A stretch of 47,332 bases of DNA from Planctomycetota bacterium (GTDB taxonomy: Bacteria; Planctomycetota; UBA1135; GCA-002686595): NCBI GenBank assembly GCA_002720975.1, contig PBIX01000104.1:1-47332 (forward strand), written 5' to 3'. Under the pieces are notes generated by a model, which was not told where the DNA came from, did not search any database, and saw only the letters and a program-made list of their open reading frames with translations. Within the stretch, counting starts at the first letter, position 1. Every line of letters begins with the position of its first letter. The translations under genes and the position numbers were made by a program. This document shows positions 1 through 9,690 of the stretch, piece by piece.

Positions 1-206
1 GCCTTGCCGTCCCCATCGATGTCCTGCAAGACGGGCGAAGGATACATCTGGCCGGTAAAAGGACTGTCGGCGGTGAGCAGCGCTTCGGGTGGATCGAAGA
101 GGTTGGTTTCGTCGTCACCAGGTGCACCGTGACTCCGCTCCGATGCGGCCTGGGGTGCGATACAGCAGGAAGTGACGAGTATGAGGACGGAGAGTTTCGG
201 GTTCAT
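1..206 (-). CDS. Secreted FG-GAP/VCBS-repeat protein, 5' end only
   Basis: Reading the minus strand from the ATG at 206-204 gives 68 codons that run off the window edge. The start MNPKLSVLILVTSCC is a short hydrophobic export signal, and the two cysteines make a weak lipobox possible. It is followed by a polar linker and then SPVLQDIDGDGKA, the typical opening of an FG-GAP/VCBS calcium-binding repeat with its DxDGDG core. Such proteins are secreted beta-propellers, common in Planctomycetota. It is divergent from the metalloprotease at 395, with about 190 bases between them that must hold both promoters; I could not identify clear -35/-10 pairs there. The function of the missing part is unknown. 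Confidence 0.6.
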   Translation of the reverse strand, partial: MNPKLSVLILVTSCCIAPQAASERSHGAPGDDETNLFDPPEALLTADSPFTGQMYPSPVLQDIDGDGK

Positions 207-5501: not shown

Positions 5502-6800
5502 ATGCTTGCCCTCGCCCTCGTCACCCTTCTGTCTGCCCCGCCACACCAAGACCCCATCCCCAGGATGCTCAAGACCATTGAGCCGGCGCGGCTCATGAGC
5601 ACCGTTGAGACCCTTGTGGGGTTCGGAACCCGCCACTCGGCCTCGGATACGGAGTCCGAGAAGACTGGAATCGGCGCCGCACGGCGGTGGATACGGAGCG
5701 AGTTCAATGCAATCTCCAAAGCCACCGGGGGGCGGCTTGAGATCCACGAGCAGCACTTCACCGTCAACGCGCGGGGCCTCGGGGAAGTGGACATGGTCAA
5801 CGTATACGGCTTCTTGCCTGGGACCGGAGTCGACCCGCAGGGACGCACTTACGTGGTCTCCGGTCACTACGACTCGCGCGCCGGAAGCGGCTCCGATTCC
5901 ACCAGCCCTGCACCCGGCGCCGATGACGACGCCAGCGGCACGGCGGTGGTGCTCGAACTGGCACGGGTCATGAGCGCGGGCGAGTACGCGGCCAACCTGG
6001 TCTTCATCTGCGTGGCGGGCGAGGAGCAGGGCCTGTACGGAGCCAAGCACTTTGCCGAGTGGGCCCAGGAGACGGGTCTGCAGGTGGACGGCATGATCAC
6101 CAATGACATCGTGGGCAACATCCACGGGGGCAACGGCATCGTGGACGACCGCACGGTACGCTGCTTCTCCGCCGCGGAGGGGTTGCACTCCACCTCACGC
6201 GAGCTGGCACGCTCCATCGGCGCCAGCGCGCGGCGCTACGTCCCCAAGGCCAACCTGCGGCTGATCTTTCGCCTGGATCGCTTCGGCCGCGGCGGCGACC
6301 ACAAGCCGTTCCACGAGAGCGGCGTCCCGGCCGTGCGCCTCTCGGAGGCCAACGAGAACTACGAGCGCCAGCACCAGGACGTGCGGGAGAAGGACGGGGT
6401 GCACTACGGCGACGTGCCCGAGTGGGTGTCGGCCGACTACATGGCGCGCGTGGCGCGAGTCAACGCGGCCGCCCTGGCCGAGTGGGCCCTGGCCCCCCCC
6501 GCCCCCGACAGACTGTTCATGCGCGCGGCGGTCTCCTACGACACGCAGCTCTCCTGGGCACCGGTGGAGGATGCCTCCGTCGCCGGCTACGAGGTCGTCT
6601 GGCGTGACACCACGGCTCCGGACTGGGAGGAGGTGCGAGCCCAAGGCCCCGAGCCCAGCGTATTGCGCGTGCGCGGGCGCGAACAGACCATCGTGCGCGC
6701 CACCATCGAGGGCATCACCGCCGACGGCTGCTTCTTCGGCGTGCGCAGCGTGAGCAAGAGCGGTCACCGCAGCCGGGTCTGCTACCCGGACACCCCCTGA
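5502..6800 (+). CDS. Secreted M28-family zinc aminopeptidase with C-terminal Fn3-like domain
   Basis: 432 residues. The start is set by one of the best Shine-Dalgarno sites in the window, AAGGAGG at 5487-5493, eight bases before ATG 5502. A short signal peptide precedes a peptidase domain with the co-catalytic zinc pattern of M28: H122 and D124 (SGHYDSR), D141 (GADDDASG), E174/E175 (AGEEQGLYG, base and ligand), D202 (TNDIVGN) and H267 (GGDHKPF). From about residue 335 a segment reading LFMRAAVSYDTQLSWAP to FGVRSVSKSGHRS looks like a fibronectin type III module. It probably trims N-terminal residues from peptides outside the cytoplasm. It is 18 bases upstream of the selenoprotein gene and likely co-transcribed. 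Confidence 0.85.
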   Translation: MLALALVTLLSAPPHQDPIPRMLKTIEPARLMSTVETLVGFGTRHSASDTESEKTGIGAARRWIRSEFNAISKATGGRLEIHEQHFTVNARGLGEVDMVNVYGFLPGTGVDPQGRTYVVSGHYDSRAGSGSDSTSPAPGADDDASGTAVVLELARVMSAGEYAANLVFICVAGEEQGLYGAKHFAEWAQETGLQVDGMITNDIVGNIHGGNGIVDDRTVRCFSAAEGLHSTSRELARSIGASARRYVPKANLRLIFRLDRFGRGGDHKPFHESGVPAVRLSEANENYERQHQDVREKDGVHYGDVPEWVSADYMARVARVNAAALAEWALAPPAPDRLFMRAAVSYDTQLSWAPVEDASVAGYEVVWRDTTAPDWEEVRAQGPEPSVLRVRGREQTIVRATIEGITADGCFFGVRSVSKSGHRSRVCYPDTP

Positions 6801-6818
6801 GCATTATCGCCGCACATC

Positions 6819-7358
6819 ATGGCCTGGATCGACACCATCCCACCCGAGGACGCCTCCGAAGAGCTGCGCGAGCTCTACCGCCGCGTCACCGACCCCGGCA
6901 CGGGACAGCTGGATCACATCATGCAGATCCACTCCCTGCACCCCGCAGGCCTGCGCGCGCACTTCGAGTTGTACCGCGCCGTGATGAAGGCCACGCCCGG
7001 CCTGTCCGCAGCCGAGCGCGAGATGATCGCCCTGGTGGTCAGCCGCGCCAACGACTGCCACTACTGAGTGCAGCACCACCGCCGCGGTCTGCGGCGCCTC
7101 CTGGATGACGAAGCTCTACTCACCGGGCTGGAGGCCGATCCCCTCCCTGAGGACTTCCCGCCCCGCCTTGGAGCCATGGTGAATTACGCCCTCAAGCTGA
7201 CCCGCGATCCCGCATCGATGGAGCGCAAAGACGTGCAGGCCCTGGAGGATGCGGGCTTCGATCACGGAGCGGTCCTCGCCATCGCCGAGGTGACCGCCTA
7301 CTACGCCTATGTCAACCGCATCGCCGACGGCCTGGGCGTGGAGCTCGAATCCGACTAG
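6819..7358 (+). CDS. AhpD-like peroxidase-family selenoprotein (in-frame TGA read as Sec83)
   Basis: Read through the TGA at 7065-7067, the frame gives 179 residues, the usual length of AhpD-like 'peroxidase-related' proteins. The first part ends SRANDCHY and the second continues VQHHRRGLRRL. In the family this site is C-x-x-C followed four residues later by His; here it is C80-H-Y-U83 with H87, so the TGA sits exactly at the second redox Cys. A SECIS-like hairpin follows at 7080-7096. Homology continues through the C-terminal helices (PPRLGAMVNYALKLT, ALEDAGFDHGAVLAIAEV, YYAYVNRIADGLGVEL), so this is one gene and not two. Likely role is thiol/selenol-dependent reduction of hydroperoxides. 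Its stop shares CTAG with the convergent permease gene. If TGA is not recoded, the product would be a truncated 82-residue protein. Confidence 0.87.
7080..7096 (+). other. Bacterial SECIS element for Sec insertion
   Basis: A 6-bp stem CGCCGC/GCGGCG closes a 5-base loop GGTCT. It begins 12 bases after the TGA at 7065-7067. The Escherichia coli fdhF SECIS has its hairpin about 11 bases after TGA, with a loop containing GGUCU flanked by GC pairs; loop sequence, size and spacing agree closely here. The bulged U of the E. coli element is not obvious. The element lies inside the coding region, as expected for bacterial selenoproteins bound by SelB. Confidence 0.8.
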
Positions 7359-8524
7359 CCCCGGCGCAGGGCTTCCACGGCGGTCATGCGTGCGGCGCGG
7401 AAGGCGGGGATCGCGCCACCGAGCAGGCCCAGCATGATCGAGAAGACGATCGCCGTGCCCAGCACCTGAGGCGTGATGCGGAAGGCGAAGGCCACCTCGG
7501 TGAACGTGATCATGTTGGTGGTGCCGGTCTCGATACCGTTCAGGGGCAGGGTCAGAAGAATGCCCACCAGCCCGCCCAGCACACCGAGCACCAGGGACTC
7601 GAACAGGAACGACAGCAGGATGGAGATGGGACGGAAGCCCAGGCAGGCCAGGATGCCGATCTCATGGGTGCGCGCCGCCAGGGCCGCCTGCATGGTGGTG
7701 GTCGTCGTGAACACGGCGGCAATGCCCATGATCACCGCCAGGAACGCGCCCAAGCCAAGCAAGGTCGCGCTGATCACGCCGGTCTGGGATATGAGGTAGT
7801 CGGCCTCGGTCATGACCTTGGCCGGCACCTGGGGGTGGTTCTCCTGAGCCTCGATCAGAGCAGGCACATCCACGTCAGGCCGCAGCACCCCGATCACGCG
7901 GTTGTAGACCGAGCGCTGCAGGGCGTCGCCCATGCGCTCCAGGTCGCCCCAGATCTCGGAAGAGAAGGTGCCCTCGTCGGTGAAGGTGCCCACCACCGTG
8001 AAGGGCACGGTGTTGAGGCGGATGACCTCGCCCACCTGACAGCCGCGGATGCGTCGGGTGAGGTTCTCGCCCACGATGATCTCGTCCGCTCCCGGCTGGA
8101 ACGTGCGGCCCTCCAGGATCTGGAGGTCATCGGCGCGGATGGTCATGGTCATGGGCTGCACCCCGCGCACGGGCACGTTGGTCTCACCCCCGCCGATCTT
8201 GAACAGGCGCACGGCCATGTAGTTCTCGGCTGAGGACATGGGTCGGCCGTCATCCGTCAGGGCGATCTCGGGGATGCTCTTGAGCAGAATGTCCGCGCTG
8301 GAGCGGGTGAAACCGCTCTGGTTCTCGGTGGTGGCTCCCGGTCGCAGAAAAACGGCCACGTCCGTGCGGCCGCCCTTCTCAAAGATCGTGACGAACCCCT
8401 GCTGCAGGGCCTGCACGCCGGAGATCACGGCCACGGTGGCGCCGATGGAGACCACGGTCAGCAGGGTCGTGCTGCGTCGAACCAGCAGGCTGCGCAGGTT
8501 GTAGCTGAAGGGAACGAGCTGCAT
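7355..8524 (-). CDS. FtsX/MacB-type ABC transporter permease (second of two)
   Basis: 389 residues. It has the FtsX-family layout: an N-terminal membrane helix after LRSLLVRRSTTLLTVVSIG, a periplasmic domain of about 220 residues, then three C-terminal helices with ALAARTHEIGILACLGF, the conserved coupling segment (KxxEIGILxAxG type), ending in RAARMTAVEALRRG. It is the last gene of the operon adaptor-ATPase-permease-permease and overlaps the preceding permease by ATGA at 8522-8526. The two permeases differ in sequence and probably form a heterodimer. Its stop shares CTAG with the selenoprotein stop. Confidence 0.88.
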   Translation of the reverse strand: MQLVPFSYNLRSLLVRRSTTLLTVVSIGATVAVISGVQALQQGFVTIFEKGGRTDVAVFLRPGATTENQSGFTRSSADILLKSIPEIALTDDGRPMSSAENYMAVRLFKIGGGETNVPVRGVQPMTMTIRADDLQILEGRTFQPGADEIIVGENLTRRIRGCQVGEVIRLNTVPFTVVGTFTDEGTFSSEIWGDLERMGDALQRSVYNRVIGVLRPDVDVPALIEAQENHPQVPAKVMTEADYLISQTGVISATLLGLGAFLAVIMGIAAVFTTTTTMQAALAARTHEIGILACLGFRPISILLSFLFESLVLGVLGGLVGILLTLPLNGIETGTTNMITFTEVAFAFRITPQVLGTAIVFSIMLGLLGGAIPAFRAARMTAVEALRRG

Positions 8525-9690
8525 CAGGCTCCCCTTCGGAAGGCGTCAACCGCCAGAAGTTTGCGCGTGGCCGCGGCAGGCAGAGCGCCGGACAGAAGAC
8601 CGATGCCGAGGGACAGGGTGCAGGCGTTGGTGAGGATCTCCGAGGTCATCTCAAAGCCCGGGAACATGGTACCCAGGAGTTTCGCGATTTCAGGGGAGCT
8701 GAGTTGGGCCAACCCGATACCGAGCCCGCCGCCCACCACGCACAACAGAACGCCCTGGCCCAGCATGACCCCGAAGACGGCCCAGTCGGAAAAGCCCAGG
8801 GCCTTGAGGACGCCCATGTCGTGGCGCTGCTCACGCCCCGCCAACAACATGGTGTTGATCACCGCCAGCAGAATGGCCGCCAGCACGCCCCCACCGATGG
8901 TGGTCACAAAGAAGGGGATGTTGCCCACCATGGAGACGAACTGCGCGTTGAACTCCGCCTCCGTGGTGGTCTGGACGCGCTGTGGGCCGTTCTCGAACAG
9001 GCCGTCCACTTCAGCGGCGATATTGACCGGGTTCACGCCCTCCGCCAGATGGATGTAGATCACTCCCGAACCCGGAGGCCCACTGGCTGCGCCACCCTTC
9101 AGGCTCTCTTCCAGATACTCAAAGGGAAAGAAGATGGTGGTCTCGTCCCAGACGATGGACTCCAACTCGTAGATCCCGGCCACCTGGAACTCCCAGGGCG
9201 AGCCGTCCAGGCGCTGAAAAATAGTGCCGATGATGGGCACCGTGTCGCCCACCTTGAAGCCATAGCGGTCGGCGGTCTGGCGGCCGATGATGCAGGCCGT
9301 GCGCTCGGTGAGGAAGCGCTCGCGCGAGCCCTCGACGATTTTGAACTCGGGGTACATGCCCAGGAACTTCTCGGGGTCCACGCCGAACTGGCCGAAGAAG
9401 CTGGAGGGGTCCTGATAGTAGCCGCCGAACCACTGCAGCCGCGCCACGCTGTCCACGCCCTCCACGGCCTTTAACTTGCCCACGTAGGACGCGGGCAGGT
9501 TGACGAAGAGGCTCACCGCGGACTGCACGATCAGGCGGTCGCTGGTGGAGTTGCGCACCCCCGCGTCCAGGCTGACAACCAGGGCGCGCAGAACGCACAG
9601 CAAGAACACGGCAATGGCGAGCGAGCCCACGGTCAGGGCTGTACGCAGCTTGTGCCGCACCAGATTGCGGAAGATCAGGCGGATCGGCAC
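8524..9690 (-). CDS. FtsX/MacB-type ABC transporter permease (first of two)
   Basis: 388 residues with the same architecture as its downstream partner: a membrane helix following [20 protein letters not shown], a periplasmic domain, then three helices beginning around [16 protein letters not shown]. The cytoplasmic coupling loop is [18 protein letters not shown] and the C-terminus reads [14 protein letters not shown]. It starts 2 bases after the ATPase stop. Such permeases act mechanically on periplasmic or envelope substrates (lipids, lipoproteins, antibiotics); the substrate is not evident. Confidence 0.88.

Follow-up and report, generated by a model that had tools for sequence, protein, structure and literature searches.

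What does an in-frame TGA mean in the middle of a peroxidase-family gene? The question is raised by positions 6819 to 7358 (plus strand) of a 47,332-nucleotide stretch of DNA from a Planctomycetota bacterium (contig PBIX01000104.1), referred to here as the window. A single 179-residue frame runs there from ATG to TAG with a sole interruption, a TGA at 7065-7067 that falls on residue 83 in the context C80-H-Y-TGA-V-Q-H-H87. Under normal reading the region falls into two open reading frames, 6819-7067 (82 aa) and 7068-7358 (96 aa), and default gene calling would turn the gene into two proteins, as the original prediction of one gene cut at its second redox Cys had warned. On the comparisons set out below, the gene very probably encodes an AhpD-like oxidoreductase that contains selenocysteine (Sec), with Sec, read from the TGA, as the second redox residue of C80-H-Y-U83.

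The family assignment is straightforward. The product matches TIGR01926 over its full length (residues 3-175; 127.9 bits against a curated cut-off of 81.8), which bears out the expected alignment to AhpD-like families, and it matches Pfam CMD (46.5 bits) and, above its cut-off, Pfam PA26. The model for AhpD proper, TIGR00777, scores 16.5 bits, below its curated cut-off of 191.95; the protein is therefore AhpD-like rather than AhpD itself. The CxxU motif sits at the position of the AhpD CxxC, aligned with Cys130/Cys133. Such proteins were already known from marine metagenomes, as had been stated at the outset: AhpD-like CxxU selenoproteins (COG2128, now TIGR01926) were described in Sargasso Sea data in 2005 (27 sequences; PMC1088965) and, as AhpD-like 1, in the GOS data in 2008 (299 sequences; PMC2398784), and recent reviews include them (PMC9312934, PMC13188914). 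Because this CxxU family has been catalogued, the gene is a further member of a known family.

Twelve bases past the TGA begins the hairpin CGCCGC-GGTCT-GCGGCG (7080-7096, plus strand), a 17-base element with a 6-bp stem, found where it had been placed. Its apical loop GGTCT (7086-7090, plus strand) lies at +19..23 after the TGA, as in E. coli fdhF, and the longer string GGTCTGC occupies +19..25, the identical offset at which it follows the fdhF TGA in 5,368 of 5,426 E. coli genomes. The stem of the E. coli fdhF SECIS has a bulged U. The proposed close resemblance to that element thus stands for the loop and the register but not for the stem, which here is G+C-rich and lacks the bulge, and the protein family differs as well. 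As evidence from one sequence the hairpin is weak to moderate: a GGTCT loop on a 6-bp stem arises in 1.5% of 20,000 synonymous recodings under the window's codon usage, and the 17-mer alone is more stable than its shuffles (z = -2.7), whereas the 42-nt region shows no extra stability (z = 0.01). With the hairpin weak in a single sequence, the case rests on comparison. Elsewhere in the same genome, a search for genes in the same loop register gave seven pattern matches, among which the window gene alone had a convincing coding frame.

When 84,980 species genomes were scanned, 77 homologous loci turned up in Planctomycetota, Acidobacteriota, and Actinomycetota, the hosts being mostly marine Acidimicrobiia. 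Residue 83 is TGA in 75 of the 76 readable homologues (one locus, L087, is unaligned at this residue); the sole exception, L088, has Cys there and is just 32% identical. Cys80 is conserved across the loci, as are the TGA and the hairpin. Among 82 homologues, the five strongest departures from codon usage fall on codons 88, 89, 90, 91, and 92, all within the hairpin; serine was left out of this ranking because its codons form two sets between which no single synonymous change leads. Gly90 is GGT in 79 of 82 (15% expected), and Leu91 is CTG in 81 of 82 (30% expected). Stem pairing amounts to 92.3% of cells, compared with 85.3% for shuffles, and none of 500 shuffles reaches the observed covariation, counts that are not to be read as probabilities because the homologues are related; slid control versions of the stem pair in only 18-50%. 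Four stem pairs have changed on both sides across the homologues. In one locus (L111 1760-1790, G023:C33), R89H and R92C occur together and keep the stem pair as A-U, although both arginines are otherwise near-invariant, a compensatory double change that selection on the protein can hardly explain. What marks a bacterial selenoprotein gene, a SECIS hairpin directly past the TGA under RNA-level constraint, is thus found here.

These data bear directly on the possibility that the TGA is a nonsense mutation in the gene of a CxxC AhpD and that the downstream part is decaying. The codon is indeed one base from the Cys codons TGC and TGT, and selB is missing from the assembly (see below), but the TGA is fixed over three phyla with intact downstream sequence, the hairpin is constrained as a SECIS, and the genome encodes Sec machinery. 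Measured against two same-genus homologues, dN/dS is 0.09-0.17 for codons 1-82 and 0.25-0.29 for codons 84-179; the part after the TGA is under purifying selection and therefore appears to be translated and functional. A stop followed by decay had been named in advance as the sign to look for in relatives, and the opposite was seen. We consider the pseudogene reading refuted, since TGA and intact downstream sequence are conserved across phyla, and assign it only the slightest residual probability.

Does the host have the means to decode Sec? Its genome assembly (3.58 Mb in 118 contigs, 90% complete) carries, on contig C56, selA (412 bits; 488 bits with TIGR00474), selD (L010 9584-10612), and a TCA-anticodon tRNA-Sec (73.4 bits, cut-off 47); selD likewise contains an in-frame TGA, placed at its catalytic position, A-C-A-G-U-A-A-K. 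A proposed search of the genome for the machinery was thus successful for these three genes and failed for selB, for which nothing scored above cut-off in this assembly; a weak SelB match proved to be EF-Tu. As side observations, SelD is itself a selenoprotein, its gene lies directly 3' of selA with tRNA-Sec about 3 kb beyond, and the selA frame (G000:C56:25367-26458) has 644 codons, 184 of them upstream of what the SelA domain needs, which may reflect the choice of start codon or a fusion. The missing selB could suggest that the host has lost Sec decoding and that the gene is a recent relic, the more so at 90% completeness, but selB, with its winged-helix domain, is present in both same-genus genomes, where it adjoins a radical-SAM gene, and in the window's genome this radical-SAM neighbor lies against the edge of contig C101, and the contig breaks off just upstream of the expected selB start. 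For these reasons the absence is best read as a probable assembly gap, and loss of decoding is very unlikely. More widely, selB occurs in 39 of the 41 genomes of the order set, and among 26 further genomes, probed by way of their loci, SelB was found in 24. One of the two exceptions, G066, carries the Cys form; the other, the draft G044, has a Sec-type gene and no SelB above cut-off, and another draft, G318, has a Sec-type gene and no SelA.

The same evidence weighs on a reading in which the UGA is passed by other means, by near-cognate insertion of Trp or by a reassigned code. A single gene cannot distinguish such read-through from Sec insertion, but the host encodes tRNA-Sec, SelA, and SelD, the TGA stands exactly at the position of the catalytic Cys, the hairpin fits the bacterial SECIS type, and the remaining long open reading frames of the window fit their respective families when translated with the standard code; we think this alternative very improbable. 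The view that this lineage decodes Sec is supported by selA, selD, tRNA-Sec(TCA), a second TGA-containing AhpD paralogue in the genome, and the conservation of TGA and hairpin, and from these sequences we infer that Sec is actually inserted in the host organism.

In the order set of 41 genomes, all 50 matches at E < 1e-20 bear exactly one TGA and form two paralogous groups, type A, with the window gene (HHRRGLR after Sec), and type B (DLR), about 35-43% identical to the window gene and represented in the window's genome by the second TGA gene (L014, G000:C5:96899-97444). The type B hairpin differs, with the form GAYCTC-CGTGCC-GAGRTC at +19..36; its stem is paired in 92.4% against a maximum of 91.3% in 500 shuffles, and of 44 sequences 42 have the codon CTC and 31 the codon CGT. 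A single SelB must read both hairpins. With one exception, every match at E < 1e-50 in 294 Planctomycetota genomes carries a TGA. A rapidly built tree has 181 rows, 161 of them Sec, and weak support for many inner branches; in it, type A comprises 105 Sec rows and has a single sister of the Cys type, L199 1000-1600 (G332:C16). The latter encodes Cys yet keeps a hairpin-like GCCGC-AGGCTT-GCGGC, possibly a fossil SECIS, in a genome (G332) that has selA; more distant Cys, Leu, and Gly forms have no conserved hairpin. A separate locus, L202 (G136:C155), holds two AhpD-like genes in tandem; where one has Sec, the other has Leu, the residue also seen there in Sestrin2. One could go further and view type A as a Sec-locked clade, spread over Planctomycetota, Acidobacteriota, and Acidimicrobiia, whose members virtually never have Cys instead of Sec and whose near-invariant SECIS would hint at passage from phylum to phylum as one unit. 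We hold this to be improbable; if true, it would point to chemistry beyond the reach of Cys, e.g., reductive dehalogenation or very fast peroxide turnover, and would make L199 a natural intermediate from Sec to Cys or from Cys to Sec.

What, then, might the protein do? The AlphaFold2 model, with Cys in place of Sec, is all-helical (pLDDT 94.6), and its best PDB matches are the peroxidase-related 2prr (TM 0.88-0.90) and 3c1l (0.83-0.86), followed by AhpD proteins, the debrominase Bmp8 (0.77-0.79), and Sestrin2. Glu68 (codon 7020-7022), Cys80 (7056-7058), Tyr82 (7062-7064), Sec83, and His87 (7077-7079), all on the plus strand, are invariant in an alignment of 28 homologues. By sequence alignment, with a constant offset of 50 over the motif, they correspond to Glu118, Cys130, His132, Cys133, and His137 of M. 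tuberculosis AhpD, the proton-relay residues of that enzyme (PMC3141380), and Tyr82 also to Tyr50 of PA0269; Cys80, Tyr82, and His87 correspond to Cys125, Tyr127, and His132 of Sestrin2, the residues of its alkylhydroperoxidase activity (PMC4674687). The AhpD relay pattern Glu-Cys-(His/Tyr)-Cys-His is fully present.

We posit that the fdhF-register stem-loop, 12 nt past the UGA, would recruit SelB-GTP-Sec-tRNA(Sec), which would decode codon 83 as Sec, and that the product would be an all-helical oxidoreductase of the AhpD/CMD fold in which U83 and C80 form a redox pair within the proton relay of Glu68, Cys80, Tyr82, Sec83, and His87. This pair could reduce an organic hydroperoxide, passing into a selenenylsulfide that a cellular thiol donor would reduce again; substrate and reductant, like the order in which Cys and Sec attack, are inferred parts of this scheme. 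From fold and residues we lean toward a peroxidase activity, although the activity of known AhpD-like proteins is weak or substrate-restricted (PMC3141380, PMC4674687). The main functional rival is a Sec-based reductive dehalogenase, comparable to the CMD-fold debrominase Bmp8; together with a CxxU thiol-disulfide reductase, it makes up the class of selenoproteins that are not hydroperoxidases. The Bmp8 structures match the model, deiodinases are among the known Sec enzymes, and the CMD fold supports several thiol chemistries, but the closest structures and families (2prr, 3c1l, TIGR01926) are peroxidase-related and the complete relay, with U for the second Cys, is invariant; a function of this kind is the less likely one, though it deserves to be kept in mind. 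The literature searched on Bmp8 and on Sec use in Planctomycetota held nothing relevant. Nor did the neighborhood, sought as a functional clue, yield a conserved neighbor indicating peroxide defense: synteny is confined to the genus. An M28-family peptidase gene (5502-6800, plus strand), conserved as the upstream neighbor within the genus only, ends 18 bases before the start of the AhpD-like gene and is a possible operon partner; two convergent MacB/FtsX-type permease genes downstream (7355-9690, minus strand) lie outside its transcript, and Rfam models found only an ordinary tRNA in the window.

To judge from the papers searched, three points are new: the family has a planctomycete host whose machinery is in view, the SECIS comes in two types that go with the two paralogues, and type A almost lacks Cys forms. 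A selenoprotein family defined from metagenomes is now tied to a specific uncultured lineage together with its machinery, and AhpD-like proteins commonly use Sec in Planctomycetota, a phylum for which a 2006 survey had only one or two genomes to examine (PMC1794560). The near-exclusive use of Sec in type A makes this clade well suited to studying under what conditions Cys fails as a substitute for Sec.

Among known systems, two other families, NF041238 (AhpD_rel_CFYUT) and NF041047 (distant AhpD selenoproteins), share with the window protein a CxxU in an AhpD-type fold; by profile it is not a member of the former (45.3 bits against a curated 175) and has no match to the latter. The Cys-containing YP_296737.1 of Ralstonia eutropha (2prr) and Mlr4105 (3c1l) resemble it in fold (TM 0.83-0.90) and length, and 2prr has the Glu/Cys/Tyr/Cys/His relay, but both carry Cys in place of Sec83 and are about 28-32% identical. 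M. tuberculosis AhpD (1knc/1gu9) shares Glu118, Cys130, Cys133, and His137 as counterparts of Glu68, Cys80, Sec83, and His87, but has His132 where the window protein has Tyr82 and Cys133 in place of Sec83, and its two-helix motif occupies a different part of the chain (PMC3141380). The Sesn-A domain of human Sestrin2 matches at Cys80, Tyr82, and His87, and the Pfam PA26 match likewise links the two; where the window protein has Sec it has Leu, and it works with a single Cys within a much larger, two-domain protein (PMC4674687). The AhpD-like selenoproteins of the Sargasso Sea and GOS data have in common with the window gene the family model, the CxxU motif, a bacterial SECIS directly after the TGA, and a marine origin. 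Those sequences, likened here by family and motif rather than by alignment, are metagenome reads, whereas the present gene stands in a Planctomycetota genome with its machinery, as one of two paralogous types, and with a near-invariant SECIS in the fdhF register.
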